Positions 14,485-26,138 of a stretch of DNA of 27,208 nucleotides are shown here, one piece after another (position 1 is the first letter of the stretch; every line of letters begins with the position of its first letter). Under the pieces are notes generated by a model. It worked only from the letters and a program-made list of their open reading frames with translations. It searched no databases and was not told the DNA's origin. The position numbers were made by a program, and so were the translations under genes. Source of the stretch: a virus; the IMG/VR virus record IMGVR_UViG_3300045999_008439, positions 1 to 27,208 of that record; one strand, given 5' to 3'.

Positions 14485-15569
14485 TGGCAGTACAGTACAC
14501 CGTCATCACCTATGACAGCGCAGGCGCACGCACCTCCTACGTGAGCGACGTGCTCGACATCGTCATCAGCAGGGCGGTCAACGGCGTGGACATGGCACGC
14601 ATCACGGTGGGCGGCACGAGTGCATCGGTGCCGTACCTCGTGTACGGCGCCATCCTCGAGGTCTACCGTGAAGACCGTGACGCTGGCATCGCCTACTATA
14701 GGGAGTTTGCTGGCATCATGCGCATGATAGACACCGTCATCGCCGATGTCACCACCATCACGGTGCAGGCAGTAGGCTTTGCCGCACTGCTCGCCGACCG
14801 CATCGTGGCATGGAAAAGCGGTGTCGCCGATCGCTCGCAGTTTGTCAGCGTCGCCGCCGAAACGGTGCTGAAAACACTGTTCAACTACAACGTGGGGAGC
14901 AGTGCCACCACGGCGAACGGGCGACTCCTCAGCGGTGTGCTGACGGGGGCAACCACGGCCGCCACTGGGGGCAATGGCAACCTGATTTCGCTCTCAGTGT
15001 CTGGGCAAAACCTCCTCACCGCCATGCAACGCGTGCAAGAGGTGGCAGGCGGGGACTTCGACCTCGTCTTCACTGCGCCAGCGACGTACACCTACACGTG
15101 GTACACGGGGCAGCGGGGCACCAACCGCACTTCTACCGTCATCTTCAGCGTGGCCAATGGCACCATCGGCTCACTGCGCATCGTGGTCGACCGCATCGCC
15201 GACGCAACGGCCGCCATCGTAGCAGGGCAAGGCGAGGGGGCGACAAGGAGTTTTGTCATCCGCCCAGCCACAGCGCCAACGGGGCTCGATCTGCGTGAAG
15301 TGTGGGTTGATGCACGCAACCAAAGTACCACAGCAGAGTACACTGCCAGCGGTGATATCACCCTCGCAGAAGCCGAGCGCCAGCGCAGCCGAGTCGATGC
15401 GCGAATTCTGCAGAGCGAGGCACTGCGGTATGGACGGGATTATGTGCTTGGCGACCTCGTGAGCGTCTACACGGGGTCAACCACGCTGACCCGCAAAGTG
15501 CAGACCATTGGTATCCGCTATGCAAGTGACGGGAGTGAAAGCATCGATGTCGGACTCATTTCTCAGTGA
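14484..15569 (+). CDS. Tail hub protein (ReqiPepy6 Gp37-like/Tal-like)
   Basis: The 361-aa protein starts MAVQYTVITYDSAGAR. It has the hub-type pattern with a beta domain (RISRAVNG-type strand, YREFAGIMRMIDT), a central LLTAMQRVQEVAGGDFDLVF helix, and a C-terminal ARILQSEALRYGRDYVLGDLVSVYTG region, a layout shared with Gp37-like siphovirus tail hub proteins. It would cap the tail tube and anchor receptor-binding subunits. It has no peptidase or lysozyme motif. Its last 23 bases overlap the next gene in another frame. Confidence 0.8.
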   Translation: MAVQYTVITYDSAGARTSYVSDVLDIVISRAVNGVDMARITVGGTSASVPYLVYGAILEVYREDRDAGIAYYREFAGIMRMIDTVIADVTTITVQAVGFAALLADRIVAWKSGVADRSQFVSVAAETVLKTLFNYNVGSSATTANGRLLSGVLTGATTAATGGNGNLISLSVSGQNLLTAMQRVQEVAGGDFDLVFTAPATYTYTWYTGQRGTNRTSTVIFSVANGTIGSLRIVVDRIADATAAIVAGQGEGATRSFVIRPATAPTGLDLREVWVDARNQSTTAEYTASGDITLAEAERQRSRVDARILQSEALRYGRDYVLGDLVSVYTGSTTLTRKVQTIGIRYASDGSESIDVGLISQ

Positions 15570-16041
15570 CTACCTGCGCACACGGTCACGCGTTGACCAG
15601 CTGGAGCGCATCGAGAGCGGAGGGGGTGGCAGTGCAGGCGCGGTGTATCTCACACTGACGCGCACAACGACCGTAGGTGTCGGCGGAGCAGGCGCGATCA
15701 TCACGTGGCAAAGCGAAGACCGGGGTAATGGAATTTCGTGGTCGGGCTCGGTTATCACCATCCCCAGCAGTGGCTACTACCTCATCGATGTGGCAGGCAA
15801 CTGGAACTCGGGTGGTGCTCAGACCTATGGCCGCCTCTACGTCAACGGCGTCATGGTCGAGCGCATGGCCAATCACTACCAGGCTTCTATCGTGGAATTC
15901 CGCGTCATGGCCCTGCGTTTCTTCAGCGAGGGCGATGCGGTCGAGGTCCAGCTAATCAACGGCGCTTTGCGCACTCTGCTGGTCACTACGTATGACCTGC
16001 AGTCCAACTCTCCGTATCTCCATATCGTAAAGGTGGCCTAG
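15547..16041 (+). CDS. Short tail protein with C1q-like domain
   Basis: I chose the ATG at 15547 (MSDSFLSDYLRTRSRVDQLERIE), which has GGGAG about 12 bases ahead. The TTG at 15508 would lie deep in the hub gene. The 164-aa product has an N-terminal helix that could trimerise, a Gly-rich hinge (ESGGGGSAG), and a beta-rich domain with IPSSGYYLIDVAGNW and GRLYVNGVMVERM. This is a C1q-like pattern parallel to the C-terminus of the 13609-14484 protein. It is probably a second receptor-binding or head/tail decoration fibre. Confidence 0.78.
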   Translation: MSDSFLSDYLRTRSRVDQLERIESGGGGSAGAVYLTLTRTTTVGVGGAGAIITWQSEDRGNGISWSGSVITIPSSGYYLIDVAGNWNSGGAQTYGRLYVNGVMVERMANHYQASIVEFRVMALRFFSEGDAVEVQLINGALRTLLVTTYDLQSNSPYLHIVKVA

Positions 16042-16042
16042 C

Positions 16043-16354
16043 ATGTACTACCGGACATACGACATTGACACGCTGATGACGTTATATATCGACCGCTACG
16101 GCACTGCCTACCCTGATATCGGCGATGCAGACTTCGAGGACGTGCCAAGTGCTGACGAGGCCATGGCCATGGTGCGGGATGAGCGCAAGCGCCGCCTTGA
16201 GCAGTGCGACTGGACGCAGCTCGGCGACGTGCCGCTGTTGCCGGCACAGGTGACACAGTGGCGCATCTACCGCCAAGCGTTGCGCGATATGACGCAGGGC
16301 TTTGCATGGAACGTGACGACGTGGCCAGTGCCACCAAGTGATCCAGATATGTGA
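16043..16354 (+). CDS. Tail fibre assembly/chaperone-like protein (Phage_tail_APC type)
   Basis: The 103-aa protein carries the family pattern near its C-terminus: RDERKRRLEQCDWTQLGDVPL, then WRIYRQALRDMTQGF, and ending TTWPVPPSD. The RxxxLxxCDWTQLxDxxL...WxxYRQALRD...WPxxP motif is common to small proteins encoded at the end of tail-fibre operons and is thought to assist fibre assembly. It is the last gene of the structural block. The next gene starts 578 bases further on. It begins one base after the previous stop. Confidence 0.85.
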   Translation: MYYRTYDIDTLMTLYIDRYGTAYPDIGDADFEDVPSADEAMAMVRDERKRRLEQCDWTQLGDVPLLPAQVTQWRIYRQALRDMTQGFAWNVTTWPVPPSDPDM

Positions 16355-16360
16355 TATACT
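16352..16360 (+). promoter_or_regulatory. Extended -10 promoter P1
   Basis: TGATATACT fits the TGnTATAnT extended -10 pattern at the very end of the structural operon. It is the first of four similar copies (16352, 16453, 16547, 16614). The +1 would fall near 16367, where a GTG lies 6 bases after the hexamer. No good -35 is visible. Confidence 0.45.
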
Positions 16361-16366
16361 ACCAAC

Positions 16367-16451
16367 GTGATTTTGTACCGGTAGGTTACAGCGGTGCAGC
16401 ATCGCGGTGGAGCGAATGGCACTGCAGAGGCGCGCAGTGCCATTCGTTTTT
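16367..16451 (+). ncRNA. Candidate small RNA from P1 to terminator T1
   Basis: If P1 fires at about 16367, the transcript would run roughly 85 bases and end at the 13-bp terminator stem with a TTTTT tail. No convincing reading frame or ribosome binding site lies between. It is an inferred compact RNA unit; equally, the terminator may simply serve the structural operon and P1 may be inactive. Confidence 0.3.
16413..16451 (+). terminator. Rho-independent terminator T1 of the structural operon
   Basis: A perfect 13-bp stem pairs 16413-16425 with 16434-16446 across an 8-base loop, followed directly by TTTTT (16447-16451). It lies about 60 bases after the last tail gene, a natural end for the late transcript. 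The T tract runs into promoter P2. Confidence 0.85.
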
Positions 16452-16452
16452 A

Positions 16453-16461
16453 TGCTATACT
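16453..16461 (+). promoter_or_regulatory. Extended -10 promoter P2
   Basis: TGCTATACT follows the T tract of terminator T1 with one base between. The predicted +1 near 16468 coincides with an ATG. The 11-base context TATGCTATACT is identical at P4 (16612-16622), showing a duplicated promoter unit. Confidence 0.5.
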
Positions 16462-16516
16462 ACATGCATGGCTGACCTTCTTGTTGCGGAACGAATACGC
16501 AGCCACCTATCTCCGC

Positions 16517-16549
16517 CACCGCGCCGCCCAGCATCGGGCGGCGTTGTGG
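16517..16549 (+). other. GC-rich hairpin between P2 and P3
   Basis: The arms 16522-16529 and 16536-16543 form a perfect 8-bp stem (CGCCGCCC/GGGCGGCG) with a 6-base loop. An outer CCAC/GTGG pair (16517-16520 with 16546-16549) extends it. The right edge abuts the -10 of P3. No T tract follows, so it is a structured RNA or DNA element rather than a terminator. Confidence 0.5.
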
Positions 16550-16555
16550 TATACT
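16547..16555 (+). promoter_or_regulatory. Extended -10 promoter P3
   Basis: TGGTATACT matches the extended -10 pattern. The predicted +1 near 16562 is the first base of an 11-bp inverted repeat, so the transcript would begin with a hairpin. As in P1 and P2, an RTG triplet lies exactly 6 bases after the hexamer. Confidence 0.45.
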
Positions 16556-16561
16556 AGTGAC

Positions 16562-16606
16562 GTGCCGAGTTGTCGCACTTCGCTACACATATCTTCAACT
16601 CGGCAC
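16562..16606 (+). other. 11-bp perfect inverted repeat at the P3 transcription start
   Basis: GTGCCGAGTTG (16562-16572) and CAACTCGGCAC (16596-16606) are exact reverse complements around a 23-base loop. The left arm starts where P3 transcription should start, giving an RNA with a sequestered 5' end. It could also be a protein operator overlapping P3. Confidence 0.55.
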
Positions 16607-16613
16607 AAAACTA

Positions 16614-16622
16614 TGCTATACT
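16614..16622 (+). promoter_or_regulatory. Extended -10 promoter P4
   Basis: TGCTATACT in the same TATGCTATACT context as P2. Transcription would start near 16628-16629 and meet the 18-bp stem at 16675-16714 after about 50 bases, so the product would be another short RNA of about 90 bases. Confidence 0.5.
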
Positions 16623-16674
16623 AAATGCGGACATCTGGACCCAAACCCCGAACCTCGATCTCCTCACACGCAGC

Positions 16675-16720
16675 ACACCGAGCCCCTACATATCACTATG
16701 TAGGGGCTCGGTGTTGGTAT
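16675..16720 (+). terminator. Strong 18-bp stem-loop terminator T2
   Basis: Positions 16675-16692 and 16697-16714 are exact reverse complements with a TCAC loop. A T-rich stretch with interruptions (TTGGTATTTT) follows on the + strand. It isolates the promoter array from the early promoter downstream. The opposite direction lacks a T tract. Confidence 0.7.
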
Positions 16721-16743
16721 TTTGGTCGACCCCTGGGCTATAC

Positions 16744-16756
16744 ATCACCTCCTTTC
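16744..16756. other. 13-base match to the 3' end of 16S rRNA (anti-Shine-Dalgarno); perfect SD on the - strand
   Basis: ATCACCTCCTTTC on the + strand equals the conserved 3' end of many bacterial 16S rRNAs (GGATCACCTCCTTTCT). On the - strand it is GAAAGGAGGTGAT, an ideal Shine-Dalgarno, but the ATG there follows GGAGG by only two bases and opens a 19-codon frame. No gene is served by it in either direction. Confidence 0.5.
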
Positions 16757-16805
16757 GGTAGGCAATGCCGCTCAAGATTCACCGCTGTGGGGCGGGATTG
16801 ATACG

Positions 16806-16814
16806 ATTATAGCA
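16806..16814 (-). promoter_or_regulatory. Leftward extended -10 promoter candidate
   Basis: The - strand reads TGCTATAAT, a perfect extended -10. With a 17-base spacer the -35 would be TTCAAC, a weak match. Transcription would run left over the 16S-like element and into the T2 stem. No - strand gene lies in its path, so it could make a short antisense or regulatory RNA. Confidence 0.35.
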
Positions 16815-16831
16815 CGATTCCGAAACTCGTT

Positions 16832-16853
16832 GAAAATTGGTCGAAAATTGGTC
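16832..16853 (+). repeat. Tandem 11-bp direct repeat GAAAATTGGTC x2
   Basis: GAAAATTGGTC occurs at 16832-16842 and 16843-16853 with no gap, one helical turn apart, just upstream of the early promoter -35 and over the -35 region of the leftward promoter. This fits an activator or repressor binding site shared by the two divergent promoters. Confidence 0.5.
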
Positions 16854-16863
16854 AAAAAAGCAC

Positions 16864-16892
16864 TTGACAAGATATCTATATAGATATATACT
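16864..16892 (+). promoter_or_regulatory. Early promoter (near-consensus sigma70 type)
   Basis: TTGACA (16864-16869), a 17-base spacer and TATACT (16887-16892) form a near-consensus vegetative promoter 40 bases before the first early gene; +1 is expected near 16899. It is by far the best -35/-10 pair I see. The spacer contains a palindrome, so repression is likely. Confidence 0.85.
16872..16887. promoter_or_regulatory. Palindromic operator in the early promoter spacer
   Basis: ATATCTATATAGATAT is a perfect 16-bp palindrome lying between -35 and -10. A bound repressor would block RNA polymerase. The phage encodes a ribbon-helix-helix protein (21283-21462), a family that binds short palindromes, and it is the best candidate ligand. 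Confidence 0.5.
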
Positions 16893-16902
16893 ATGTACAT
16901 AA

Positions 16903-16916
16903 GGTTCAGATGAACC
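16903..16916. promoter_or_regulatory. Inverted repeat at the early transcript 5' end
   Basis: GGTTCA-GA-TGAACC is a 6-bp perfect inverted repeat with a 2-base centre, starting about 4 bases after the predicted +1 and ending just before the AAGGAG ribosome binding site of the first early gene. With a loop of only two bases it is more likely a protein site than an RNA hairpin. Confidence 0.4.
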
Positions 16917-16932
16917 GAAGGAGATTGAAGAC

Positions 16933-17436
16933 ATGAGCAAGCACATCATTTCACAGGACACCCCAGTCGCACAGCTCGAGCAGATGGTATACGACGCACT
17001 CACCGAAATCAACGAGAACATGACCAACGTGGCTGAGTGCAATTCCATGGGTGACCTGTACGACATGGTCATGAGCGGGTTTACCGTCTACGACGAGGAC
17101 GTGGTCACGATTGAGATGGTTAAGCGCATTCGTGAAGAGTGGGTGTCGGACATGCAGGAAATCGAGCAATTCGACTCGACCGAAGTCATCGAGACCCCAG
17201 CCGTCGAAGTCGTCGCCGAGCAGGATGAAATCGAACGAGTAAATGCATTGCTGTCACGTGAGACAGTCAAGGCTGTCTGGAGTGAGACGAAGCGCATGGA
17301 TCGCGGCCAGGTGTACGAACTGTACCATGCAACTGTGGATGCATATCGTGGCTACTATGCACTGGGGTGCACTGACGTAGTAGTCGAGGCGCGAATTCGT
17401 GCCATCAAGCAGGTACTGGAAGCCAAGCGAAAGTGA
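16933..17436 (+). CDS. First early gene, acidic hypothetical protein, 167 aa
   Basis: It is preceded by AAGGAGAT at the usual distance and is the first gene after the strong early promoter. The product is helical and acidic in its first two thirds (for example DYDMVMSGFTVYDEDVVTIEM-like acidic clusters and VEVVAEQDEIERV) and becomes basic at the C-terminus (RIRAIKQVLEAKRK). It has no cysteine motif, signal or membrane segment. I do not recognise it. First-position early genes in phages often encode host-takeover or anti-defence proteins, but nothing in the sequence proves this. Confidence 0.82.
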   Translation: MSKHIISQDTPVAQLEQMVYDALTEINENMTNVAECNSMGDLYDMVMSGFTVYDEDVVTIEMVKRIREEWVSDMQEIEQFDSTEVIETPAVEVVAEQDEIERVNALLSRETVKAVWSETKRMDRGQVYELYHATVDAYRGYYALGCTDVVVEARIRAIKQVLEAKRK

Positions 17437-17459
17437 TAAGCGAGTCACACCGCAAGCCC

Positions 17460-17482
17460 AGCGCCGTCACATCGGCGGCGCT
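17460..17482 (+). other. Intergenic GC hairpin, variant R0
   Basis: AGCGCCG (17460-17466) pairs with CGGCGCT (17476-17482) across a 9-base loop, between two early genes and before AAAGGAGAT of the next. The arrangement stop, ACACCGC-like sequence, GC hairpin, RBS is the same as at 20053, 20456 and 20779, though the sequence differs. Confidence 0.45.
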
Positions 17483-17502
17483 CAACACCAAAGGAGATTG
17501 GC

Positions 17503-17805
17503 ATGAAAATCATTCAGATGGAGCGCGCGATTCTCAACCCCCACGCCGACCCCAGTCAGTGGGTCGCAGGCTACGCAGGCATGTGGCAGACCCCAGAGGA
17601 CGTCTTCGTCCTGCAGTGTCGTCAAGTATCTGGCAGTCCACTCATCTCACCGAAAGTCGACCCCACACCAATCCTGTGTGCATTGTGGGTATACACTCCG
17701 ACTGGCATGGAGAGCATCGCCACGTGGTGGGGCCCTGTCGACTGCATCGCCAATGACATTTCGACCCTGATGCAGCAGGAGGTCACCTTGACATGGCAGA
17801 GCTAG
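17503..17805 (+). CDS. Hypothetical protein, 100 aa
   Basis: A clear AAAGGAGAT precedes the ATG. The product begins MKIIQMERAILNPHADPSQW and is beta-rich with several Trp, Val and Pro residues and two Cys far apart. No known motif, signal or membrane segment is evident. Its last 13 bases overlap the next gene. It belongs to the early operon, and its function is unknown. Confidence 0.78.
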   Translation: MKIIQMERAILNPHADPSQWVAGYAGMWQTPEDVFVLQCRQVSGSPLISPKVDPTPILCALWVYTPTGMESIATWWGPVDCIANDISTLMQQEVTLTWQS

Positions 17806-17996
17806 ACCGACAGTATGCCGAGCAGATCGCATGGCTCATCCAGTGGCGCCAGCGATGCGATGAGCTGATTGAGAGTGGTCAGGTATCACCCAAGGAGTTT
17901 GTGAAGGTCGAGGCGGAGGTGCTGGACGAGATTCGCCGACTGCGTGACCTGCGTCGGCACCGCATCGCTGAACGACTGGAGGCAAAGCGTGATTGA
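17793..17996 (+). CDS. Small helical protein, 67 aa
   Basis: AGGAGGT lies about 10 bases before the ATG at 17793, inside the preceding gene. The product is nearly all helix and highly charged (EIRRLRDLRRHRIAERLEAKRD at the C-terminus), consistent with a coiled coil or nucleic-acid-binding helix pair. The family is not recognised. It is translationally coupled on both sides: its stop overlaps the GTG of the next micro-gene. Confidence 0.75.
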   Translation: MAELDRQYAEQIAWLIQWRQRCDELIESGQVSPKEFVKVEAEVLDEIRRLRDLRRHRIAERLEAKRD

Positions 17997-18075
17997 TGGA
18001 CTAATCGTGGTCGGGACCGTGGCGGCGTTCGCAGTAGTGTGTTATCTGATTGACAAAGCGAGGGGACGGATATGA
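17989..18075 (+). CDS. 28-aa single-pass membrane microprotein
   Basis: The GTG at 17989 has GGAGG (17978-17982) six bases ahead. The peptide begins MIDGLIVVGTVAAFAVVCYL and ends IDKARGRI, i.e. one transmembrane segment flanked by an acidic N-terminus and a positive C-terminus. The frame overlaps the previous gene by 8 bases and the next by an ATGA, filling the gap exactly, which supports it as real. The predicted orientation has the basic end in the cytoplasm. Role unknown; superinfection exclusion or membrane-stress functions are only possibilities. Confidence 0.6.
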   Translation: MIDGLIVVGTVAAFAVVCYLIDKARGRI

Positions 18076-18377
18076 TGCAGCATACGTATCGGATGTGGTT
18101 GGGTGAGCTGGAGATGACGGTACACGTGGTACAGCTCGAGGACGCAATGCCCAGCCTGGTGTGGATGACCGCACGGCCCATCATCGTGCGAGCTACGGTG
18201 GAGGTCAGCGACCCCAGTGCTGGCAGTGAGGCAGTCCGCGTGGTGCACATGCAGGACTATGCAGTCGATGTGTGGGACAGCGGGATTACCTTGGCCATCG
18301 CCGAGAAAATCAGCGTAAAAACCATGATGGGCAGTATGCAGCAGATCGAGCCCGTTATCAGTGGAGAGGAGTGGTAG
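18072..18377 (+). CDS. Hypothetical protein, 101 aa
   Basis: Tandem ATGs at 18072 and 18075 follow GAGGGGACGG; the first overlaps the stop of the microprotein (ATGA). The product is rich in beta-strand patterns (LEMTVHVVQLED; IIVRATVEVSD; AVRVVHMQDYAVDVWD) and ends ISGEEW. No motif is recognised. It resembles compact, early, accessory phage proteins in size only. Confidence 0.75.
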   Translation: MMQHTYRMWLGELEMTVHVVQLEDAMPSLVWMTARPIIVRATVEVSDPSAGSEAVRVVHMQDYAVDVWDSGITLAIAEKISVKTMMGSMQQIEPVISGEEW

Positions 18378-18378
18378 T

Positions 18379-18573
18379 ATGGAAATCAGTATCGCACTCG
18401 TGGTCATGCTCATCATCTGCATGGTGGCACTGACGATTGTCCAAGCACTGGCATGGTATGAGCGCTATAGCGCACGGTGGCACCATGAGATGATGCTGGA
18501 GAGCTACGCCGATGGATGGGACGCGGCCTGCAAGGCGATAAAAGAGCAAGTGGAAGGGGAGGAAAAACGATGA
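18379..18573 (+). CDS. Small single-TM protein, 64 aa
   Basis: I chose the ATG at 18379, one base after the previous stop, with GGAGAGGAG ahead; an in-frame ATG at 18361 lies inside the previous gene. The product has an N-terminal hydrophobic segment (about residues 4-26, ISIALVVMLIICMVALTIV) and a soluble, charged helix ending EEKR. This is a typical type I/III membrane anchor with a cytoplasmic tail. Function unknown. Its stop overlaps the next ATG. Confidence 0.75.
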   Translation: MEISIALVVMLIICMVALTIVQALAWYERYSARWHHEMMLESYADGWDAACKAIKEQVEGEEKR

Positions 18574-18734
18574 CCACATTCCAGCAGATTACCCAGCTCC
18601 TCGAGGAGCGCAACCGCCTCAACCGCCAGATGGACTGCATCACCGAGCCCGCAGTTCGCAAGGCGTACCTCAAGCGCCTTGCCCAGCTCGAAGCGATGCT
18701 CACCAAGCTGCGGGGTGACCGCAATGCCTCGTAA
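18570..18734 (+). CDS. Small coiled-coil protein, 54 aa
   Basis: The ATG at 18570 overlaps the previous stop (ATGA) and has GGGGAGG upstream. The product is helical (QITQLLEERNRLNRQMDCI, then LKRLAQLEAMLTKLRG) with Leu at heptad spacing, so probably a two-helix coiled coil. No known family. It overlaps the next gene by 11 bases. Longer in-frame starts lie inside the upstream gene and lack ribosome binding sites. Confidence 0.72.
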   Translation: MTTFQQITQLLEERNRLNRQMDCITEPAVRKAYLKRLAQLEAMLTKLRGDRNAS

Positions 18735-18918
18735 AACAATTAGTGGCAGAGGCGCCCAAAAACTGCTCATCACCATCTACCCTGATGATGCTGAGCGACT
18801 GGAGGAGATGCGCCGCACGATGGCGCAGGAGCTCGGACGACACGTGGCCTATGCGGAGGTGATCCGCACGATTATCAGCAATGCGCACAAGGAGATGAAG
18901 GACGATGAGGGCGTATAG
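18724..18918 (+). CDS. Small putative DNA-binding protein (RHH-like), 64 aa
   Basis: Starts MPRKTISGRGAQKLLITIYPDDAERL. A short strand (LLITIYP) followed by two helices (DAERLEEMRRTMAQELG; YAEVIRTIISNAHKEM) is the layout of ribbon-helix-helix proteins, which bind DNA as dimers through the strand. The match is weaker than for the 21283 protein, so the family call is tentative. CGGGGTG lies before the ATG. The last bases overlap the next gene. Confidence 0.68.
   Translation: MPRKTISGRGAQKLLITIYPDDAERLEEMRRTMAQELGRHVAYAEVIRTIISNAHKEMKDDEGV
18892..18909 (+). repeat. 18-bp direct repeat at a gene junction, copy 1 (copy 2 at 19167-19184)
   Basis: GAGATGAAGGACGATGAG occurs here and again at 19167-19184. 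In both places it holds the end of one gene, an AAGGACG ribosome-binding site and the ATG of the next. The repeat brackets the 18905-19186 gene, so that gene may have been inserted or duplicated through this junction. Confidence 0.55.
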
Positions 18919-19186
18919 GTTATCAACGAGTATTGGCGAGACAACTATCACCATCGTCATGACGCCAGTCGACATGAATGTCAAAAGTTTTTTTGGCGAG
19001 CCACATACTCACATCAGGTGTGACGTCGAATGTGTCATGGGACTGAGCATGCAGGCATCCAGCTTTGTGGTTGTACAGGCTGGAGGATGGGGACCATTCG
19101 AGGCCCGGCAGTTGGTGGAAAGCATTTTTGCAGACATGCAGCGTCGCAAGAGCATTGTACAGGAGGAGATGAAGGACGATGAGTGA
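18905..19186 (+). CDS. Hypothetical protein, 93 aa
   Basis: The ATG at 18905 lies within the preceding gene and follows AAGGACG. The product has beta-like segments (TTITIVMTPVDM; HIRCDVECVMG; SSFVVVQAGG) and a C-terminal helix that ends EEMKDDE. The end EMKDDE resembles the C-terminal EMKDDEGV of the preceding protein; the underlying DNA GAGATGAAGGACGATGAG recurs at 18892-18909 and 19167-19184, so the gene junction itself was duplicated. Function unknown. Confidence 0.7.
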   Translation: MRAYRLSTSIGETTITIVMTPVDMNVKSFFGEPHTHIRCDVECVMGLSMQASSFVVVQAGGWGPFEARQLVESIFADMQRRKSIVQEEMKDDE

Positions 19187-20048
19187 TTTTTCATTAGCTG
19201 GATACCAGCCCGAGAGTTATGACGACACCGCAGAGCGCTACCCGCTCATCTACTGGCTCAACTCGACCAAGCTGGGCGGCGTGGTCGGCGCATGGCACAC
19301 CTCGAGCCTCAGCGCCGCTCCCGCTGGATGGGAACAGGTGGAGCGCTTCGACAACGAAGAGCTCGCCTTTGAGACACGGTCGCTGACCTTCGTGCCACTC
19401 CGCCAGCGCATGCAATGGTATCTGTCACTAGATGACGGCTCAACCAAGGCCATCCCGCACTACATGGACGCCGTGGCGGCCAAGACGTACCTCGCCAAGC
19501 ATGGCGAAACTCGGCAGTACGCTGGCGTGCGCAGTACCACCCAAATACTGGCCATGGTCAAGGGCATTGCCGAGCCCGTGGTCATCCAAGCCAAGGGCCT
19601 CGTGGCGATGAAATTGTTCAAGCGCCCAACCAAGCGCAGCGGTGGCGGCGAGGTGTACCTCTGGATCAATGCGTGCACGTCGCTGGCAAACCAAACCAAG
19701 AAGGGTTCCGACCCCATCCCCCACTTCGCCTTCTGGGCAACGCTGGTAACCCCGCTCACGGCCAAGGGCAAGCCCGTCACGACCGAGGTATCACAGGGTG
19801 CAGTCGTGGTCTACCCTCAGCTCCACAACGAGCCATCGAAGGTCACGCGGGAGGAACTTGTTCGCCAATTTATCGGCCGTGACCTGCTCCAGCTCGCCCA
19901 TGCGATGTACCTCGACGGCGAGGCGTGGGCAAGTGAGCCCGCACGGGATGACTTCGCCGGCGGTGCTGATGCCCAGCCCGTCGCATCGCCAGCGCCAAGC
20001 AACGTGGCACAGTCCATCGAGGACGACGAAACGCCGATGCCGTTCTAG
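19179..20048 (+). CDS. Putative single-stranded DNA-binding protein with acidic C-terminal tail
   Basis: The 289-aa protein overlaps the previous gene by 8 bases. Its core is mixed alpha/beta with no enzyme motif I recognise. The last part is low-complexity (Ala/Pro/Ser) and ends SIEDDETPMPF: a disordered linker followed by acidic residues and a terminal Pro-Phe, the pattern used by SSB proteins (for example DDDIPF in E. coli) to recruit replication partners. It lies in the early region upstream of the primase-helicase. The SSB role is inferred from the tail, size and context; the fold is unconfirmed. Confidence 0.7.
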   Translation: MSDFSLAGYQPESYDDTAERYPLIYWLNSTKLGGVVGAWHTSSLSAAPAGWEQVERFDNEELAFETRSLTFVPLRQRMQWYLSLDDGSTKAIPHYMDAVAAKTYLAKHGETRQYAGVRSTTQILAMVKGIAEPVVIQAKGLVAMKLFKRPTKRSGGGEVYLWINACTSLANQTKKGSDPIPHFAFWATLVTPLTAKGKPVTTEVSQGAVVVYPQLHNEPSKVTREELVRQFIGRDLLQLAHAMYLDGEAWASEPARDDFAGGADAQPVASPAPSNVAQSIEDDETPMPF

Positions 20049-20052
20049 TGAG

Positions 20053-20093
20053 TAAACACCGCGCCCCACTTGGCCAGAGCTGGGTGGGGCGCG
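20053..20093 (+). repeat. Intergenic hairpin repeat, copy R1
   Basis: A 40-bp sequence (20053-20092) is identical to 20779-20818. It forms a perfect 10-bp stem (20060-20069 with 20084-20093, CGCGCCCCAC/GTGGGGCGCG) and a 14-base loop, between the SSB-like stop and the AAAGGAGG of the next gene. No T tract follows. It may be an mRNA processing or stabilising element, or a recombination seam. Confidence 0.8.
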
Positions 20094-20110
20094 GGAAAGG
20101 AGGTTGAGAG

Positions 20111-20452
20111 ATGGGATTAATTGAGTTGCTGAAAATGCTGAAAAAACGCTCGGAGACTGCACGGGAGCTTGATAGGTACGACAATTTGTACTGGCACTTG
20201 CCGATATACGCACAGGAAGTGAAGTACCGCAGCATCATAAAGTCCTTAAAATCGCAGGGGCGTACACCACATCCACTCATACTCGAGCATTATCGCAAGG
20301 TGGAGCAGTGGGCGGGATTTTTCAACGCATATCGGCATCTTGGATTGAGGCTTGATGATGAGTACTACGCAGCACGCAAGGAGGCCATCGACTGGATACA
20401 TAGCAGGGGAAATGGCGCCATGGACATGCTGAAAACGTGGATTGATGACTAA
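20111..20452 (+). CDS. Hypothetical protein, 113 aa (hairpin-bounded gene 1)
   Basis: AAAGGAGGTTGAG precedes the ATG. The product is helical and basic (LLKMLKKRSETARELDRYDN; QEVKYRSIIKSLKSQG) with an aromatic-rich centre (WAGFFNAYRHLGLRL) and an acidic WIDD end. No family recognised. It is bounded by hairpin repeats R1 and R2 and is more AT-rich than its neighbours, which fits a recently acquired gene. Confidence 0.75.
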   Translation: MGLIELLKMLKKRSETARELDRYDNLYWHLPIYAQEVKYRSIIKSLKSQGRTPHPLILEHYRKVEQWAGFFNAYRHLGLRLDDEYYAARKEAIDWIHSRGNGAMDMLKTWIDD

Positions 20453-20455
20453 CAA

Positions 20456-20488
20456 AACACCGCCCCGCTCAGCATGACCAAGCGGGGC
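20456..20488 (+). repeat. Intergenic hairpin repeat, divergent copy R2
   Basis: AACACCGCCCCGCT... forms an 8-bp stem (20462-20469 with 20481-20488, GCCCCGCT/AGCGGGGC) after the stop of the previous gene. The start AAACACCGC is shared with R1 and R3; the arms and loop differ but keep base pairing, so structure rather than sequence seems conserved. Confidence 0.6.
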
Positions 20489-20508
20489 ACAGACGAGGAG
20501 AAGCAGGG

Positions 20509-20781
20509 ATGAAGCGATACATACTGACTATGCCGATTCAGCCAGGAATTGATTTGGTGATGTACATGGGAGCGAATCTCGTCCGACACCGCAATTGGTT
20601 TCGATACCGACTGTACCTCGTGGTGGTTCGAGCCGAGGTGGTGCATGGTGGCCATACGATACAGGTGGAAAAATTTGAGGTGAATGTGACTACGCGCTGG
20701 ACTGCACATACTGCGATGCAAATCGCAGAGGAGTACGTAGCGAGTATGCGCAAGCAGATGACCATAGTAGTATCAGACTAA
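20509..20781 (+). CDS. Hypothetical protein, 90 aa (hairpin-bounded gene 2)
   Basis: GAGGAGAAGCAGGG lies before the ATG. The product is beta-rich and basic (YRLYLVVVRAEVVHGG; IQVEKFEVNVTTRW), with a C-terminal helix (AMQIAEEYVASMRKQM). No motif recognised. It lies between hairpins R2 and R3. Its beta-strand plus terminal helix outline is shared by the next gene product (IEMQLDGKLIAVTGKS, then EQAREAVQQW), but I cannot show homology by eye. Confidence 0.72.
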   Translation: MKRYILTMPIQPGIDLVMYMGANLVRHRNWFRYRLYLVVVRAEVVHGGHTIQVEKFEVNVTTRWTAHTAMQIAEEYVASMRKQMTIVVSD

Positions 20782-20818
20782 ACACCGCGCCCCACTTGGC
20801 CAGAGCTGGGTGGGGCGC
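20779..20818 (+). repeat. Intergenic hairpin repeat, copy R3
   Basis: Identical over 40 bp to 20053-20092, starting inside the TAA stop codon of the preceding gene. The stem is the same (GCGCCCCAC/GTGGGGCGC). AAAAGGAGATTGAG and the next ATG follow closely, as at R1. Confidence 0.8.
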
Positions 20819-20835
20819 AGAAAAGGAGATTGAGT

Positions 20836-21189
20836 ATGGAGATAGAATGGCATCGATTTGAGATTACTTATTTCACCGTTCCGCACGACATCATGGGATT
20901 CGTCTATATCCGCATCGAGATGCAGTTAGATGGGAAGCTCATTGCGGTGACAGGGAAGTCGCACTGCTATCACTACCCAAAAGCCGCAGGATACCGCGCA
21001 TGGATGTATCCGACCATTGAGCAAGCGCGGGAGGCAGTGCAGCAGTGGCCAGAGTCGCTGATTCGGCTATGCCTCGAGAGCGTTGACACTATCTACGATC
21101 TCAACGAGGTGGCAGCACATAACCGCGAGATTGCACACCGGCAGTTTATGGAGGGATACAATCTGTATCAAGCGGTGCTGTTCGACTAA
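20836..21189 (+). CDS. Hypothetical protein, 117 aa (hairpin-bounded gene 3)
   Basis: I chose the ATG at 20836 (MEIEWHRFEI) with AAAAGGAGAT ahead; the TTG at 20830 would sit too close to that Shine-Dalgarno. The product alternates strands and helices (VYIRIEMQLDGKLIAVTG; TIEQAREAVQQWPESLI; AAHNREIAHRQFMEGYN). No known motif. It lies between repeats R3 and R4, the third of three orphan genes separated by hairpins. Confidence 0.75.
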   Translation: MEIEWHRFEITYFTVPHDIMGFVYIRIEMQLDGKLIAVTGKSHCYHYPKAAGYRAWMYPTIEQAREAVQQWPESLIRLCLESVDTIYDLNEVAAHNREIAHRQFMEGYNLYQAVLFD

Positions 21190-21225
21190 GCACCGCGCCC
21201 CACTTGGCATCAGCTGGGTGGGGCA
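21187..21225 (+). repeat. Intergenic hairpin repeat, degenerate copy R4
   Basis: TAAGCACCGCGCCCCACTTGG then CAGCTGGGTGGGGC matches R1/R3 apart from a small change in the loop (CATCAGC for CCAGAGC) and a shortened right arm (7-bp stem GCCCCAC/GTGGGGC). It begins in the stop codon of the previous gene and ends the repeat-bounded block. The RHH gene promoter follows. Confidence 0.7.
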
Positions 21226-21246
21226 TTGTGTTGTCTAAGCATTGTA

Positions 21247-21255
21247 TGGTATAAT
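21247..21255 (+). promoter_or_regulatory. Promoter of the RHH regulator gene
   Basis: TGGTATAAT is a perfect extended -10; the -35 region is weak (TTGTGT with 18-base spacing). GGTA-TAATC-TACC (21249-21261) is an inverted repeat over the -10, suitable for autoregulation. +1 would lie near 21262, leaving a leader of about 20 bases with GGGAGGG before the ATG at 21283. Confidence 0.65.
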
Positions 21256-21282
21256 CTACCTACATTGTTTATGGGAGGGCAT

Positions 21283-21462
21283 ATGCCACAGCGAAGCGAT
21301 AAGACCACAGCTAGCATGGTCAATACTGGGCTTTATCTGCCCCAAGCACTGATTGATGCACTAAACCGCATGGCCGACAAGAAGGGGATGAGCCGCAATG
21401 CGCTGATTACCCAGCTCCTCACCAAGGCGGCCAAGAAGTACATCCAGGAGGTGCGGGGATGA
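21283..21462 (+). CDS. Ribbon-helix-helix transcriptional regulator (CopG/Arc type), 59 aa
   Basis: I chose the ATG at 21283 with GGGAGGG ahead; an in-frame start at 21226 would begin before the promoter. Residues 13-52 fit the RHH fold: strand VNTGLYLP, helix ALIDALNRMADKKG, turn MS, helix RNALITQLLTKAAKKYI. Such dimers insert the strand into the major groove of palindromic sites. It has its own promoter and is the likeliest repressor of the early promoter palindrome at 16872-16887 and of itself. The target is inferred. Confidence 0.88.
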   Translation: MPQRSDKTTASMVNTGLYLPQALIDALNRMADKKGMSRNALITQLLTKAAKKYIQEVRG

Positions 21463-21809
21463 AAACCAAGTGGATCATGAAGACCAGCTACATCACACTG
21501 TCGGACGACGCGGGACAGCTCATGCACTGCCCAGCATGTGGCTATAGCTACACAAGCCATGAACGCGTCGATGTGTACCAGCGGGACAGCGAAGATTCGG
21601 CGACTGGCATACATGTCAGCGTCCACGAAACCGACGTAGACATCGACCGTGTTATGGGCTTCAATCCCAGCGACCGTCGCAATGGTATCCGCATTTACTT
21701 CTCATGCGAGGGATGTGGCGAAGACCATCCGGGATTTTCGATTACTATGGTGCAGCACAAGGGGCGCACGTTTTTCGAGGCGCAGTACTACGTAGAGGAT
21801 CAGTCATGA
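21459..21809 (+). CDS. Zinc-ribbon-like hypothetical protein, 116 aa
   Basis: Starts within the previous stop (ATGA). Two CxxC pairs, C24-P-A-C27 and C83-E-G-C86, flanked by Gly and aromatic residues (HCPACGYSYTS; YFSCEGCGEDHPGF), form a probable zinc ribbon. The stretch between them is polar with acidic repeats. It may bind nucleic acid or a replication protein. Its stop overlaps the primase-helicase ATG, so the two are translated together. Confidence 0.82.
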   Translation: MKTKWIMKTSYITLSDDAGQLMHCPACGYSYTSHERVDVYQRDSEDSATGIHVSVHETDVDIDRVMGFNPSDRRNGIRIYFSCEGCGEDHPGFSITMVQHKGRTFFEAQYYVEDQS

Positions 21810-23995
21810 GCACAGCCGACGCAGTTCTTCAGGAGCTCAAGCTTCGCCAAATCGGGGAAGGCAAGTGGCGGGGTAACTCGCCATTTCGCTCAGACTCTGA
21901 CAGCGATAGCTTCACGCTCACCGTGCATGATGCCGAGCACGGTGCATGGTTTGACCATGTCAGCGACACCGGTGGCACGCTGTATCAGCTCGCCAAGCAC
22001 CTCGGCATCGCACTGCCAGCGCAGGGCCCAGTCAGCGACACCAAGCGCGCGGAAACCTTTGAGCAATTCGCACAGGATCATGGCGTTGATGTCAGCGTCT
22101 ATGAGCGTGCTGGATGGAAAGCCACGACGTATCAGCGCATCCCAGCGATTGCGTTTAACACCAAGACGGGCACGCGCTACCGCCTCCTGCAGGGCCCTGC
22201 CAAGTATAAGAGCGTGACTGGATACAAAGCATGTTGGTATCGCCTCGAGGAGGCATTGGCCATTACCAAGCAAAGCGGCATGCCGCTAGTGCTGTGTAAT
22301 GGCGAGGCGTCCACCGTGCCAGCACAGGCTATGGGCGTGCCTGCAACGTGCATCACGGGTGGAGCTGAACGTCAGATACCCGAAGTACTTTTACAGGAGC
22401 TTACAGAGGCGTACAGAGGCGACATTGTCATTGCACTAGACTGCGACGAGAAGGGCCGCGCCTCGGCACGCAAACTGCATACCCAGCTCAAAAGCGTGGC
22501 CACACTCAAGCCGCGCATCGTTGACATGCGGTTGGGCGAGAAAGGCGATCTAGCCGACTACCTGCGACTGTGGAGCGCCAAAGACCTCTTGGCATTGCCA
22601 GATATTTCGGTACAGGAGTACATCGCCGCACTGCCACGCTCTATCACGGCTGCAGAACTCCAAGGCATCACGGTGCCGCCCCTCGAGTACATCATCGATG
22701 AGCTCATGGTGCCAGGATGTTACTTGCTGGCAGGTGCGCCCAAGAGCCGCAAAAGCTTTGTCGCCCTGCACATGGCCATTGCCATTGCGTCGGGTGGTGT
22801 GGTTTTTAGTCGCTTCAAGGTGCCACAGCGACATGGCGTGCTCTACCTTGACCTTGAGATGAGCCAAAATTCGGTGTACCGCCGTGTGCGCACGATGATA
22901 GACAAGAGTGAGCAATGGCCGGCAAACCTACACTTTATGTTCAACGATGCATGGACATTTCGTGGCCTCGAGGCGGGTGCGCATCTGGATAACTGGCTGG
23001 ATGCGCACCCCGATGTCCGCGTAGTTATCATCGACGTATTGGCGCAATGGAAGGAACCTGTCGACCCACGCACGCCAGTGTACACCGCCGACTACGACGC
23101 ACTTAAGTTTATCCAGCGTATTGCTACACGGCGCAACATCGCTATCATCGTGGTACACCATACCAACAAGAGCAAGCTCAGCAAGGGCGACAACCCATTC
23201 GATAAAATTAGCGGCTCAACTGGCATCCAAGGCGCGGTCGACGCAATGTGGCTGTTGATGCGTGATCCAGAGAACCCCATGAGCACCACGCTTCAGATGA
23301 CTGACCGCAATATTTTCGATATTGACCGTGTCGACCTCATCTGGGATGACTACTTAGGATGTCATACTATCGACCCCAAGCTTAAGCTCCTACAGAACAC
23401 CACCGCTGAGCGGCGCGCTATCTACAATACACTCAGTGAGAGCGGTACCACGATGACGCCAGCAGAGTTGGCCAGCGCGATTGGCAAGAGCGATGCCAAC
23501 GTCAAGAAGATGTTATCCCGCCTTGTCCAAGACCAACTCATTGAGAAGGTGGGGTATGGTCGGTATAAGGCTATTACCATCAACACCACCCCTCCTACTA
23601 ATAACGGTTACTCTAGTTACTCTGGTAACTCTAGTTACTCTAGTTACTCTGGTTACTCTGTAGATGAGAGTAACCCAGATGGTGAGAGAAGAGTAACCGA
23701 GGAGTACCCAAGAGTAACCGGGAGTAACCAAAGAGTAACCGGGGAGTTTGAGGCAGTAGAATCACCTAAACCCCCCAAGAGTAACCAGAGTAACCAATTA
23801 TTGTATAGAGAGCAAATCATCAGGGAACTTGGACGCAAAGTCATGCTCGAGCGATTGCTGTGGCCACGCATCGTGCGACGCACCGAATTGGAGGCATTCC
23901 AAGAGGCATTGACTGCAATGGTCGAATCTGGTGAGTTGCGCCGTACCGAAACCGCACAGGGTCCAGCCTATCAAACCGCCATCGCCACCGTATAA
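21806..23995 (+). CDS. Primase-helicase: Toprim plus RecA-like (RepA/AAA_25) helicase
   Basis: I chose the ATG at 21806 (ATGA overlap), 729 aa. Residues about 24-62 resemble a primase zinc-finger region (NSPFRSD...WFDHVSDTGGTLYQLA) without its cysteines. A Toprim domain carries CNGEAS (E167) and DCDEKGR (212-218). A RecA-like ATPase has Walker A GAPKSRKS (310-317), VLYLDLEM, VVIID (406-410) and VVHHTN (449-454). A winged helix lies near 535-585. Then comes a low-complexity stretch encoded by 9-bp iterons (about 601-664), followed by a C-terminal helical domain. It would unwind DNA and prime replication, probably at the iterons in its own gene. Confidence 0.93.
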   Translation: MSTADAVLQELKLRQIGEGKWRGNSPFRSDSDSDSFTLTVHDAEHGAWFDHVSDTGGTLYQLAKHLGIALPAQGPVSDTKRAETFEQFAQDHGVDVSVYERAGWKATTYQRIPAIAFNTKTGTRYRLLQGPAKYKSVTGYKACWYRLEEALAITKQSGMPLVLCNGEASTVPAQAMGVPATCITGGAERQIPEVLLQELTEAYRGDIVIALDCDEKGRASARKLHTQLKSVATLKPRIVDMRLGEKGDLADYLRLWSAKDLLALPDISVQEYIAALPRSITAAELQGITVPPLEYIIDELMVPGCYLLAGAPKSRKSFVALHMAIAIASGGVVFSRFKVPQRHGVLYLDLEMSQNSVYRRVRTMIDKSEQWPANLHFMFNDAWTFRGLEAGAHLDNWLDAHPDVRVVIIDVLAQWKEPVDPRTPVYTADYDALKFIQRIATRRNIAIIVVHHTNKSKLSKGDNPFDKISGSTGIQGAVDAMWLLMRDPENPMSTTLQMTDRNIFDIDRVDLIWDDYLGCHTIDPKLKLLQNTTAERRAIYNTLSESGTTMTPAELASAIGKSDANVKKMLSRLVQDQLIEKVGYGRYKAITINTTPPTNNGYSSYSGNSSYSSYSGYSVDESNPDGERRVTEEYPRVTGSNQRVTGEFEAVESPKPPKSNQSNQLLYREQIIRELGRKVMLERLLWPRIVRRTELEAFQEALTAMVESGELRRTETAQGPAYQTAIATV
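23606..23795. repeat. Inverted 9-mer iteron array, candidate replication origin
   Basis: Six tandem 9-mers on the + strand (GGTTACTCT, AGTTACTCT, GGTAACTCT, AGTTACTCT x2, GGTTACTCT; 23606-23659) face seven reverse-complement copies (AGAGTAACC type at 23667, 23690, 23711, 23721, 23732, 23778 and 23787) plus one degenerate copy near 23701. The reverse copies fall in two reading frames (RVT and SN), so DNA sequence rather than peptide is conserved. An AT-rich patch (ATTATTGTATAG) follows. This resembles lambda, whose origin iterons lie inside gene O. Confidence 0.8.
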
Positions 23996-24011
23996 AAAAA
24001 TGGAGGAGATC

Positions 24012-24437
24012 ATGACCGAGCATTGCCTTTGTTGCCGCACACGGCTCGACACCGCTACACCCTATCCCCAGCTCTGCGTTGCCTGCAGGGCCACGGGCAC
24101 GGAGTTGGCCATGCGCCGCATTAGTTCCGACATTGACCTCCTGGCCAGGGCATGGGGTGCCAAGGTGGCCGCACTGGGTCCCGCAGAGCAAGACCGCTTC
24201 GAGAAGATGCTGATAGCGTGGGACGAGGCATCGACCTCGCCAGCACCGTACGCCACGTATCGCACGCGGATCAATGTCTTCCGCAGGCGCCTCGACGCCA
24301 CCATCGACGTGGGCGATGCCTTCGCCGATGCGGTGCTGACGTGGTGGCAGTGCATGCAGCGCCATGCCGACCGCGACGTGCTGCGCCAGCACATTGCCTT
24401 CACGGAGCACGCAGGACAGCGAGGGTTTGAGCTATGA
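24012..24437 (+). CDS. Zinc-finger-like hypothetical protein, 141 aa
   Basis: I chose the ATG at 24012, which has TGGAGGAGAT ahead; the in-frame start at 23931 lies in the primase-helicase. The N-terminus has two CxxC pairs (C5/C8 and C22/C25) separated by 13 residues, a small zinc finger, followed by an all-helical body (PAEQDRFEKMLIAWDEA; VLTWWQCMQRHADRDVLRQH). It probably contacts DNA, RNA or the replication complex. Family not recognised. The stop overlaps the next ATG by 4 bases. Confidence 0.8.
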   Translation: MTEHCLCCRTRLDTATPYPQLCVACRATGTELAMRRISSDIDLLARAWGAKVAALGPAEQDRFEKMLIAWDEASTSPAPYATYRTRINVFRRRLDATIDVGDAFADAVLTWWQCMQRHADRDVLRQHIAFTEHAGQRGFEL

Positions 24438-25534
24438 CAGAGCAGAAACGAAAACGGGTCAATTGGACACCTGAAGCCATGGCCACACTCAAGCGCATGG
24501 CCACAACCCAGCCCGTCGCCGTCATCGCCAAGCACTTCGACACCACCGAGCGGGCCGTGCGTCGCCAGATTGGCAGGATGGGCATCACTCTGCAGGGCAT
24601 ACAACGACCGACCATCAAGCGACGCACGGTGCACCATCCACCACGGCGCTGGACACCGCAGGAAGAGCAATTCGTGGCCGCGCATTACGGCACGATGCCA
24701 ACGCGGAAGATTGCCCAGCGCCTCAAGCGCTCATTTGCATCGGTGTGGGGCAAGGCGTACAAGCTTCAGGCTCACGAGGAGCTCCGCCACGATGCAGAGA
24801 TGATGATGACCAGCACCGACGTAGCCGAGTTCCTTGGTGTCACCAAGCACACTGTCGGCACATGGTGGAAAGACAACGGACTGCCATACCACGTACGAGG
24901 CCAAATGTACCTCGCCTACGAGGGCGAAATCCTCAATTGGCTTCGCACCGATGCCAACGTCTTGCGCCTCACTCGCGATGCGATCGAGCCACGTCTTCAG
25001 CGACTGTACGATGCAGTGCGGCGTGAGCACTACACACTCGATGAGCTTAATGCGCTTGACGTGCCAGCGCTGATGCCACGCCAATGGAAATGGGGAGAAG
25101 CGCAAGAATGCGGTGCGTCACCACCCAGGGCCATCATCATTGGACGCAACGGCGGTGGCAACGGCAGTGCAAGTCGCCAGTCACGCGTCGTCTACTACCG
25201 CAAGGACGAAGTCAGGGCATGGGCCTACGCATGGGCGCATGTCATCCCCGAGAATGTCAAGCACCCTGACATCGCCGACGTGGTACTGGCGTGGCAGTCG
25301 CGCTACGTGCTCAATGCCGAGCTGTACGCACTCATCCCCCAGCACAACATTAGCAATTGGTACACATCAAAAGGCTTTCCCCGCCAAGTCAAGTTCCGCA
25401 TGTACTACGATCGCCTCGCCGTCGTCGCATGGTGCAAGGCGCATCGATTCCCTGACATTGCCCGAGCATTGTACCGTGGCGTTCCGCTGTGCTATGATGA
25501 GGTCATACGAGAGAGGGAGCGCCGCCATGCGTAG
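24434..25534 (+). CDS. Multi-helix-turn-helix DNA-binding protein, 366 aa
   Basis: The N-terminus has two Myb/SANT- or GcrA-like repeats (10-50, NWTPEAMATLKRMA...IAKHFDTTERAVRRQI; 72-110, RWTPQEEQFVAAHYG...IAQRLKRSFASVWGKA). A MerR/excisionase-type HTH follows (about 126-172, STDVAEFLGVTKHTVGTWWKDNGLPYHVRG). The C-terminal part repeats parts of that last pattern (VVYYRKDEVRAW; LIPQHNISNWYTSKGFPRQVKFRMYYDRLAVVAW). I see no catalytic motif. It could bind the iteron array or act as a late-gene regulator. Its last 8 bases overlap the nuclease gene. Confidence 0.85.
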   Translation: MTEQKRKRVNWTPEAMATLKRMATTQPVAVIAKHFDTTERAVRRQIGRMGITLQGIQRPTIKRRTVHHPPRRWTPQEEQFVAAHYGTMPTRKIAQRLKRSFASVWGKAYKLQAHEELRHDAEMMMTSTDVAEFLGVTKHTVGTWWKDNGLPYHVRGQMYLAYEGEILNWLRTDANVLRLTRDAIEPRLQRLYDAVRREHYTLDELNALDVPALMPRQWKWGEAQECGASPPRAIIIGRNGGGNGSASRQSRVVYYRKDEVRAWAYAWAHVIPENVKHPDIADVVLAWQSRYVLNAELYALIPQHNISNWYTSKGFPRQVKFRMYYDRLAVVAWCKAHRFPDIARALYRGVPLCYDEVIRERERRHA

Positions 25535-25802
25535 AGCTGCCAAGATTGACACAACACATCGCCCTATCGTGGAAGCCCTGCGTGCGGTCGGCGCCAGCGT
25601 CATCGACCTCGCCACGGTCGGCCACGGATGTCCCGATTTGCTCGTGGGCTACCGTGGTGACACGTGGCTCGTCGAGGTCAAGGGCCCCAAGACCAAGCTG
25701 AGTGAGAGCCAAGTCAAGCTCCATGCCGCATGGCGGGGCAAGGCCATTGCCGTAGTCCGCACCGTGGACGAGGCTTTGGCACTGATTGGGGCAGTGCCGT
25801 GA
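25527..25802 (+). CDS. VRR-NUC/Holliday-junction-resolvase-like nuclease, 91 aa
   Basis: I chose the ATG at 25527 with GAGAGGGAG ahead; the longer frame from 25113 overlaps the HTH gene almost wholly. The compact nuclease fold is visible: HGCPDLLVG (D37), then WLVEVKGPKTKLSESQ (E50, K52, Q62), the GxPDhhhh...(E)VKxxxxxLSxxQ pattern of VRR-NUC and related PD-(D/E)xK enzymes. Such phage proteins cleave branched or flap DNA during replication or packaging. The length matches stand-alone phage forms. Confidence 0.88.
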   Translation: MRRAAKIDTTHRPIVEALRAVGASVIDLATVGHGCPDLLVGYRGDTWLVEVKGPKTKLSESQVKLHAAWRGKAIAVVRTVDEALALIGAVP

Positions 25803-26032
25803 CACTACGCTGGCGCCGTGAGATCGGGCGCTACCCCGTCAGCCTGTATGTGATACCGCCGTCGATGCGCTACATCCTCGTCCGTGAGATGCCTGGCGAT
25901 GCGGACGACGAGGTGATAGCGCACGGCAGGGCACTGCCAGGCATGACGGCAACGGACATACTGAGATGGGTCGCCGATGAGCTAAGGGAGATTGCTGATG
26001 AGCTGGAGGAAACCGATGCAATGGACGTATAG
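25799..26032 (+). CDS. Hypothetical protein, 77 aa
   Basis: The GTG at 25799 overlaps the nuclease stop (GTGA) and defines the N-terminus MTLRWRREIGRYPVSLYVIP. A beta-hairpin-like region (RYPVSLYVIPPSMRYILVREM) is followed by an acidic helix (ATDILRWVADELREIADELEETDAMDV). No known motif. It ends inside the next micro-gene. Function unknown. Confidence 0.72.
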   Translation: MTLRWRREIGRYPVSLYVIPPSMRYILVREMPGDADDEVIAHGRALPGMTATDILRWVADELREIADELEETDAMDV

Positions 26033-26138
26033 TGACACCGCACTGGCCACGCTGTTCTGCTGTGTAGTGGTGCTAATTATTTTCGTGACGACGGTGGGGA
26101 GCATCGTCGCACGCTATTGGGGAAGCGACGATGATTGA
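26016..26138 (+). CDS. 40-aa single-pass membrane microprotein
   Basis: The ATG at 26016 has GGAGG (26005-26009) six bases ahead. The peptide begins MQWTYSDTALATLFCCVVVL, continues IIFVTTVGSIV and ends ARYWGSDDD, i.e. one hydrophobic segment of about 23 residues with a polar N-terminus and an acidic end. It overlaps both neighbours, filling the space between them. An alternative start at 25998 adds six residues. Its role could be lysis or membrane-related, but this is a guess. Confidence 0.6.
   Translation: MQWTYSDTALATLFCCVVVLIIFVTTVGSIVARYWGSDDD

Follow-up and report, generated by a model that had tools for sequence, protein, structure and literature searches.

A divergent candidate single-stranded DNA-binding protein with an acidic Pro-Phe tail in a tailed phage genome

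Near the primase-helicase gene of a tailed phage lies an open reading frame for a 289-residue protein that ends in IEDDETPMPF and matches no family in Pfam or PHROGs. A preliminary description, made from the letters of the DNA, compared this end with the interaction tails of single-stranded DNA-binding proteins (SSBs), saw no typical OB pattern in the core and suggested that the protein may represent a divergent family of phage SSBs. Is the protein the phage's own SSB, or does it serve another function? The window analysed here is the whole virus record IMGVR_UViG_3300045999_008439, 27,208 bases long, and all positions are numbered on it.

The candidate gene and its genomic context

The window encodes a tailed phage with terminase, portal, HK97-type capsid, tape measure, Dit and a Gp37-like tail protein. 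A perfect direct repeat of 123 bp is found at its ends (bases 8-130 equal bases 27084-27206). Since the ends are identical over this length, the genome is effectively complete and circularly mapping (~27.1 kb), despite the record not being flagged complete. Within the structural genes, the portal gene (4117-6168) is fused to a Mu-F-like head-morphogenesis domain. The capsid protein (683 aa, 6629-8680) matches Phage_capsid in residues 408-680 only, and its residues 178-352 match a 'major head and protease protein' family (E 5e-6). The structural genes are followed by a module that holds the SSB candidate gene, a primase-helicase, a D5-like regulator with HTH, a dCTP deaminase-like gene and a weak match to the VRR-NUC nuclease family (21.0 bits against a cut-off of 23.8). 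The dCTP deaminase-like gene spans the window ends.

The candidate gene runs on the plus strand from an ATG at 19179 to a stop codon at 20046-20048. It is preceded by an RBS-like purine stretch (AGGAGG ... AAGGA, 19161..19176, plus strand), and AAGGAG stands before the gene in seven of the eight relatives shown, the eighth (L008) having AAAGGG. The upstream ORF (18905-19186) shares 8 bases with the candidate gene. Three parts can be distinguished in the protein, all encoded on the plus strand: a core of residues 1-256 (19179..19946), in which residues ~20-252 are predicted to adopt an OB-like fold; an Ala/Pro/Ser-rich disordered linker of residues ~260-279 (19956..20015), poorly conserved and with pLDDT <50; and the acidic tip IEDDETPMPF, residues 280-289 (20016..20045). 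The core carries a net charge near zero (-1 to +2), which counts against an SSB. Thus, the reading frame and the DDETPMPF end given in the preliminary description were correct, and its disordered linker was recovered in the model, where residues 253-289 have pLDDT <50. Its term 'early' is fair as far as position goes, as the gene lies upstream of the primase-helicase.

The primase-helicase gene (21806..23995, plus strand) matches the PHROGs family DNA primase/helicase and, in Pfam, AAA_25 and Toprim_2, the latter below its cut-off. The listed ORF (21704-23995) probably starts too early, because a start codon of one relative (L006) corresponds to 21806 and another (L002) diverges right after that ATG. 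The bacterial-type SSB family PF00436 was matched in none of the 10 records that carry the candidate gene, and the control gave matches in 10 of 14 genomes; the label SSB was likewise absent among the 30 window proteins, the candidate included, that were compared with PHROGs. Hence the candidate gene is found together with replication genes, in a genome in which PF00436 and PHROGs reveal no other SSB. DNA polymerases of families A and B had no match in the window genome.

Comparison of the window with L002 revealed an exchange beside the gene. The two DNAs match up to window position 21809 and the match resumes at 23973; the exchanged stretch comprises 21810-23972 in the window and 9603-12040 in L002. 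In L002, a D5_N/DUF5906 protein that uses the same start codon takes the place of the AAA_25-type primase-helicase. The D5 type is also present in L008, L009 and L010, with a Prim-Pol match, below the cut-off, in L010 alone; L006 has the AAA_25 type, and in L001 the window type can be seen over its first 150 residues. The helicase type is readable only where a contig reaches far enough, and L003-L005 stop before. Since the candidate SSB is kept beside two helicase types, its essential contacts would be with DNA and with something constant, for example host replication proteins. The exchange thus suggests that the protein is independent of one particular helicase, and that its tail may address the host.

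An intergenic hairpin, CCCCACTTGGC...AGCTGGGTGGGG, occurs in three copies on the plus strand (20064-20089, 20790-20815 and 21198-21223), each between a stop and a start codon. The first copy lies directly 3' of the candidate gene and has a 16-bp stem with a z-score of -6.0; the other two reach -4.2 and -3.2. An exact-pattern scan of IMG/VR found the hairpin only in the contigs of L001 and L002, the latter with five copies. No T-run follows the hairpins, and no Rfam family matched at gathering scores in 15500-27208. Possibly, the sequence acts as an mRNA-processing or stability element. Between two of its hairpin repeats, L002 also carries two adjacent copies (5925-6161 and 6201-6470) related to the window ORF 20509-20781, at 27% and 93% identity, respectively.

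A new sequence family with a conserved acidic tail

Repeated scans of IMG/VR, queried with the protein or with successively enlarged alignments, converged on nine other contigs, a number to be read with the short-peptide seeding of these scans in mind, which can miss distant relatives. One relative is identical over the match (L001) and eight are 93-46% identical (L002, 93%; L003-L005, 77-79%; L006, 64%; L008-L010, 46-47%). Pattern-based scans of a genome contig collection of 84,980 species gave no relative, and 50,697 GenBank phage records, searched with E limits from 0.01 to 10, gave no credible one. The weak matches in these and similar searches, such as those to a DNA polymerase of Lactobacillus phage Ldl1 (E 2), to Pseudomonas phage RVTF4 (E 9) and to a sulfite reductase chain (E 0.5), were rejected as not credible, and a sequence search of the PDB likewise yielded no credible relative of the window protein. 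No Pfam family was matched by the window protein at E <= 10 and none in PHROGs; the nine aligned members, compared with families at E <= 10, gave just stray matches with E 0.12 or worse. In the eight pairs for which it was computed, dN/dS was 0.063-0.378. The gene is therefore conserved and under purifying selection. It defines a family that is new at the sequence level, most likely one more branch of a familiar kind of protein and not a kind of its own.

A constant feature of this family is its end. In all nine distinct sequences (the window protein and eight relatives, the identical L001 being left aside) the protein terminates in PF, with three or four acidic residues among the last 10, and the tail is retained although the relatives diverge down to 46% identity. 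The linker before it varies: among four sub-clade representatives, 7-8 of 18-20 linker positions are identical, against 105-192 of 228-233 positions in the core. Such ends are rare in ORFs at large. When the window and four phage stretches (L035, L036, L052 and L053) were read in six frames with a minimum ORF length of 60 aa, one ORF in 624 ended in PF, namely the candidate ORF itself, and three of the 624 combined at least three acidic residues in the last 10 with a final F. A tail by chance is unlikely. E. coli SSB has an acidic tip that ends in Pro-Phe and stands behind a disordered linker. By analogy, the linker and tip of the candidate are built like the C-termini of bacterial and phage SSBs. 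For the phage proteins T7 gp2.5 and Enc34, both OB-variant SSBs, acidic and disordered C-termini are described in a passage of PMC5686142. Loss of the tail is reported there to increase affinity or to loosen ssDNA specificity in T7 gp2.5, gp32 and Enc34.

Predicted fold of the core

An AF2 model of the window protein was built from the alignment of nine sequences (pLDDT 62.9, pTM 0.64). It shows a long strand pair, helices at residues 98-107, 140-147 and 158-172, and then more strands. We also modelled the core of L010 (47% identical); this second prediction drew on the nine sequences used for the first, and its confidence is poor (pLDDT 44.5). The two models are not independent, because both were built on one set of sequences, and the agreement of the second counts as a weak second vote because its confidence is poor.

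A Foldseek search of the PDB with the window model gave no match at E <= 0.001; ranks 1 and 2 were taken by a kinesin, of low probability and implausible, and BRCA2 was third (E 0.18). VIA-align was then run on Foldseek's best 993 PDB chains, of which 22 reached Z >= 2, with 19 rows listed. The best was 9teh_I (Z 6.5, rmsd 4.8, 159 aligned), the chain of the recombination directionality factor (RDF) of phiC31, confirmed by phmmer to be gp3 itself. It was followed by gp32 of T4/RB69 (1gpc, Z 5.8, rmsd 4.5, 152 aligned; 2a1k, 5.1; 8gme, 4.8; 2atq, 4.3), three BRCA2 entries (Z 4.8-2.9) and four RPA or XPA-RPA entries (Z 3.2-2.7). These proteins fill the top 12 of the 19 rows listed. The lower rows (Z 2.4-2.0) hold two CST entries and another RPA, and also the unrelated NusG (domain 2) and ATP-grasp proteins, besides NlpE. 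The kinesins, antibodies and proteasome subunits of Foldseek's top ranks do not occur among the 19 rows listed. With the L010 model, 9teh_I again ranked highest (Z 6.5, rmsd 4.6, 157 aligned), followed by 1gpc (Z 4.7), BRCA2 (4.1) and eIF5A (3.8). RPA reached no more than 2.1 there, close to the unrelated Kir channels, MalK and a carboxylase (~2). The aligned regions of BRCA2, RPA, CST and eIF5A are OB folds. All Z-scores are 6.5 or lower, in the range below 8 in which, by VIA-align's own note, an arrangement may be due to chance. The listing of structural neighbours is coherent although the Z-scores stay below the safe level.

With modest confidence, the models suggest that the core is probably OB-like and arranged in the manner of gp32. 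The view that the core lacks a typical OB pattern holds for the sequence and is probably wrong for the fold. The structure prediction that had been proposed as a check for an OB fold placed phiC31 RDF, gp32 and BRCA2 at the top, within the Z-scores and model confidences given above.

In BFVD, Foldseek found 23 predicted viral structures at E <= 0.001. The top three share 23-28% identity with the candidate, and no functional name is attached to any of the 23. At rank 42 stood a record named single-stranded DNA-binding protein (E 0.025). Two of the phages behind these records were inspected: Pf-WMP4 ORF22 matched nothing in PHROGs or Pfam, and within the part of phage Lana that was analysed no gene has the length given by BFVD. 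On visual inspection, gp3, gp32 and the candidate seem to share a similar strand pattern, a likeness that we did not count as evidence.

Proposed role and comparison with known systems

The best explanation, to which we assign a probability of roughly 0.78, is that the gene encodes the replicative SSB of the phage itself, made of an OB core and a partner-recruiting tail. The divergent phage SSB family proposed at the outset is supported by the tail in 9/9 sequences, the lack of a recognised family, PF00436 in 0/10 records and the structural neighbours of the two models; such a protein would bind ssDNA. In the proposed mechanism, the phage primase-helicase would open the DNA and the core (residues ~20-252), folded OB-like as in T4 gp32 or phiC31 gp3, would coat the exposed ssDNA. 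The flexible linker would carry the acidic Pro-Phe tip which, when free, may occupy the ssDNA site, by analogy with E. coli SSB, T7 gp2.5 and gp32. DNA binding would displace the tip from this site, and the tip could then dock replication or repair partners while the host polymerase would copy the coated strand. The tail partners are most likely host proteins, because neither DNA polymerase family A nor family B was matched in the window genome. Diverged SSBs of this kind can escape sequence libraries, so that a phage genome may seem to have no SSB; the family described here gains a testable identity.

Three other readings were weighed against a replicative SSB. The protein might be an RDF like phiC31 gp3 (PF18897), which steers a serine integrase to excision, as the phiC31 RDF chain is the best structural neighbour of both models and phiC31 gp3 likewise lies near replication genes. 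However, PF18897 did not match the candidate family, with the control phiC31 gp3 scoring 64 bits, and serine recombinase (PF00239) and tyrosine integrase (PF00589) families were found in 0/10 records, which include the effectively complete window genome and others that may be fragments. Moreover, in a passage of PMC5311408, phiC31-type RDFs are reported to have replication roles, and a statement in PMC12924846, citing Alsaleh 2025, describes the RDF of TG1 as an SSB that was recruited to serve as a cofactor, the TG1 integrase having apparently been adapted to recognise an SSB for excision. With no integrase in the window genome, the RDF reading is largely refuted and we regard it as scarcely probable.

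A protein without any nucleic-acid binding, whose PF tail and weak OB likeness are coincidental and which has another early function such as host takeover, would fit the missing sequence-level link to known SSBs, the low model confidence and the lack of a PDB match at E <= 0.001 in Foldseek. This is very unlikely given that the tail persists in every distinct sequence down to 46% identity and that ssDNA-binding OB proteins top the lists of both models; the gene also persists while its neighbours turn over, though the contigs were selected for carrying it. A third reading is an OB protein for single-strand annealing or recombination mediation, like T7 gp2.5, in place of a general SSB of the fork. 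The gene neighbourhood is of the same type, T7 gp2.5 is labelled for both activities and the module holds the weak VRR-NUC match. However, no annotated annealing-protein family was matched (Pfam 0 at E <= 10; relatives with stray matches, E >= 0.12), none of the neighbouring genes tested was called an exonuclease, and another SSB that could do the coating was not detected. We consider it unlikely.

The replicative SSB proposed here can be set beside four known systems. Bacterial-type SSBs (PF00436, E. coli SSB) share the linker and the acidic Pro-Phe tip, whereas the candidate core is not PF00436; the core of E. coli SSB is smaller than that of the candidate. T7 gp2.5 and Enc34 are OB-variant phage SSBs. 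For another phage SSB, from a lactococcal phage, complementation of a temperature-sensitive E. coli ssb mutant is reported to have been used as an assay (PMC3208561). The T7-type profiles PF21265 and PF10991 did not match the candidate, with the control T7 gp2.5 detected. In T7-type SSBs, strand 2 is followed at once by a long capping helix; as a possible counterpart, the model has the 10-residue helix 98-107 after a strand at 89-92, with strand assignment uncertain. Both the bacterial and the T7/Enc34 types are absent from the structural matches listed, an absence that excludes nothing. The gp32 proteins of T4/RB69 (PF08804) are the next best structural match after gp3; they are similar in length (301 against 289 aa) and both have an acidic C-terminal region. 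In contrast to the candidate family, none of five gp32 sequences ends in PF. The zinc ligands of gp32 are His-Cys3, and the candidate has no gp32-type zinc site, since an invariant Cys is absent among the nine sequences. PF08804 did not match the candidate, with the control T4 gp32 scoring 226 bits, and hhalign gave no significant alignment with the gp32 family (E 0.43) or with the gp3-like family (E 0.12), at a query Neff of 1.64 in both cases.

The closest structural match, phiC31 gp3 (PF18897, PHROG 9220; 244 aa), is encoded two genes past an exonuclease, with primase and polymerase genes downstream of it. A gp3-like RDF would be expected together with a cognate serine integrase, and PF00239 matched nothing in the window genome. 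Unlike the candidate, phiC31 gp3 has no acidic PF tail, and likewise five other members of its family. An acidic tail closing in Phe was found in two of the eight aligned gp3-like members whose C-terminus was in hand, a ninth (MinS1) being cut. Streptomyces phage AbbeyMikolon (L039) ends in ...DDPTEDYADEPPF (...ADEPPF) and Microbacterium phage Eula (L045) in ...GDEDEPAF; both proteins are annotated as RDFs. The tie between RDFs of the phiC31 group and SSBs is already in print, in view of the TG1 statement (PMC12924846), and the structural tie to phiC31 gp3 seen here agrees with a recent proposal in which replication proteins serve serine integrases as switches of direction. At rather less than even odds, one may speculate that the candidate family, the tailed gp3-like members and gp32 all branched from a single lineage of phage SSBs. 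In it, the window protein would stand for the ancestral role, a tailed replicative SSB of a phage that has no integrase, and the tail-less phiC31 gp3 would have been taken over as an integrase cofactor.
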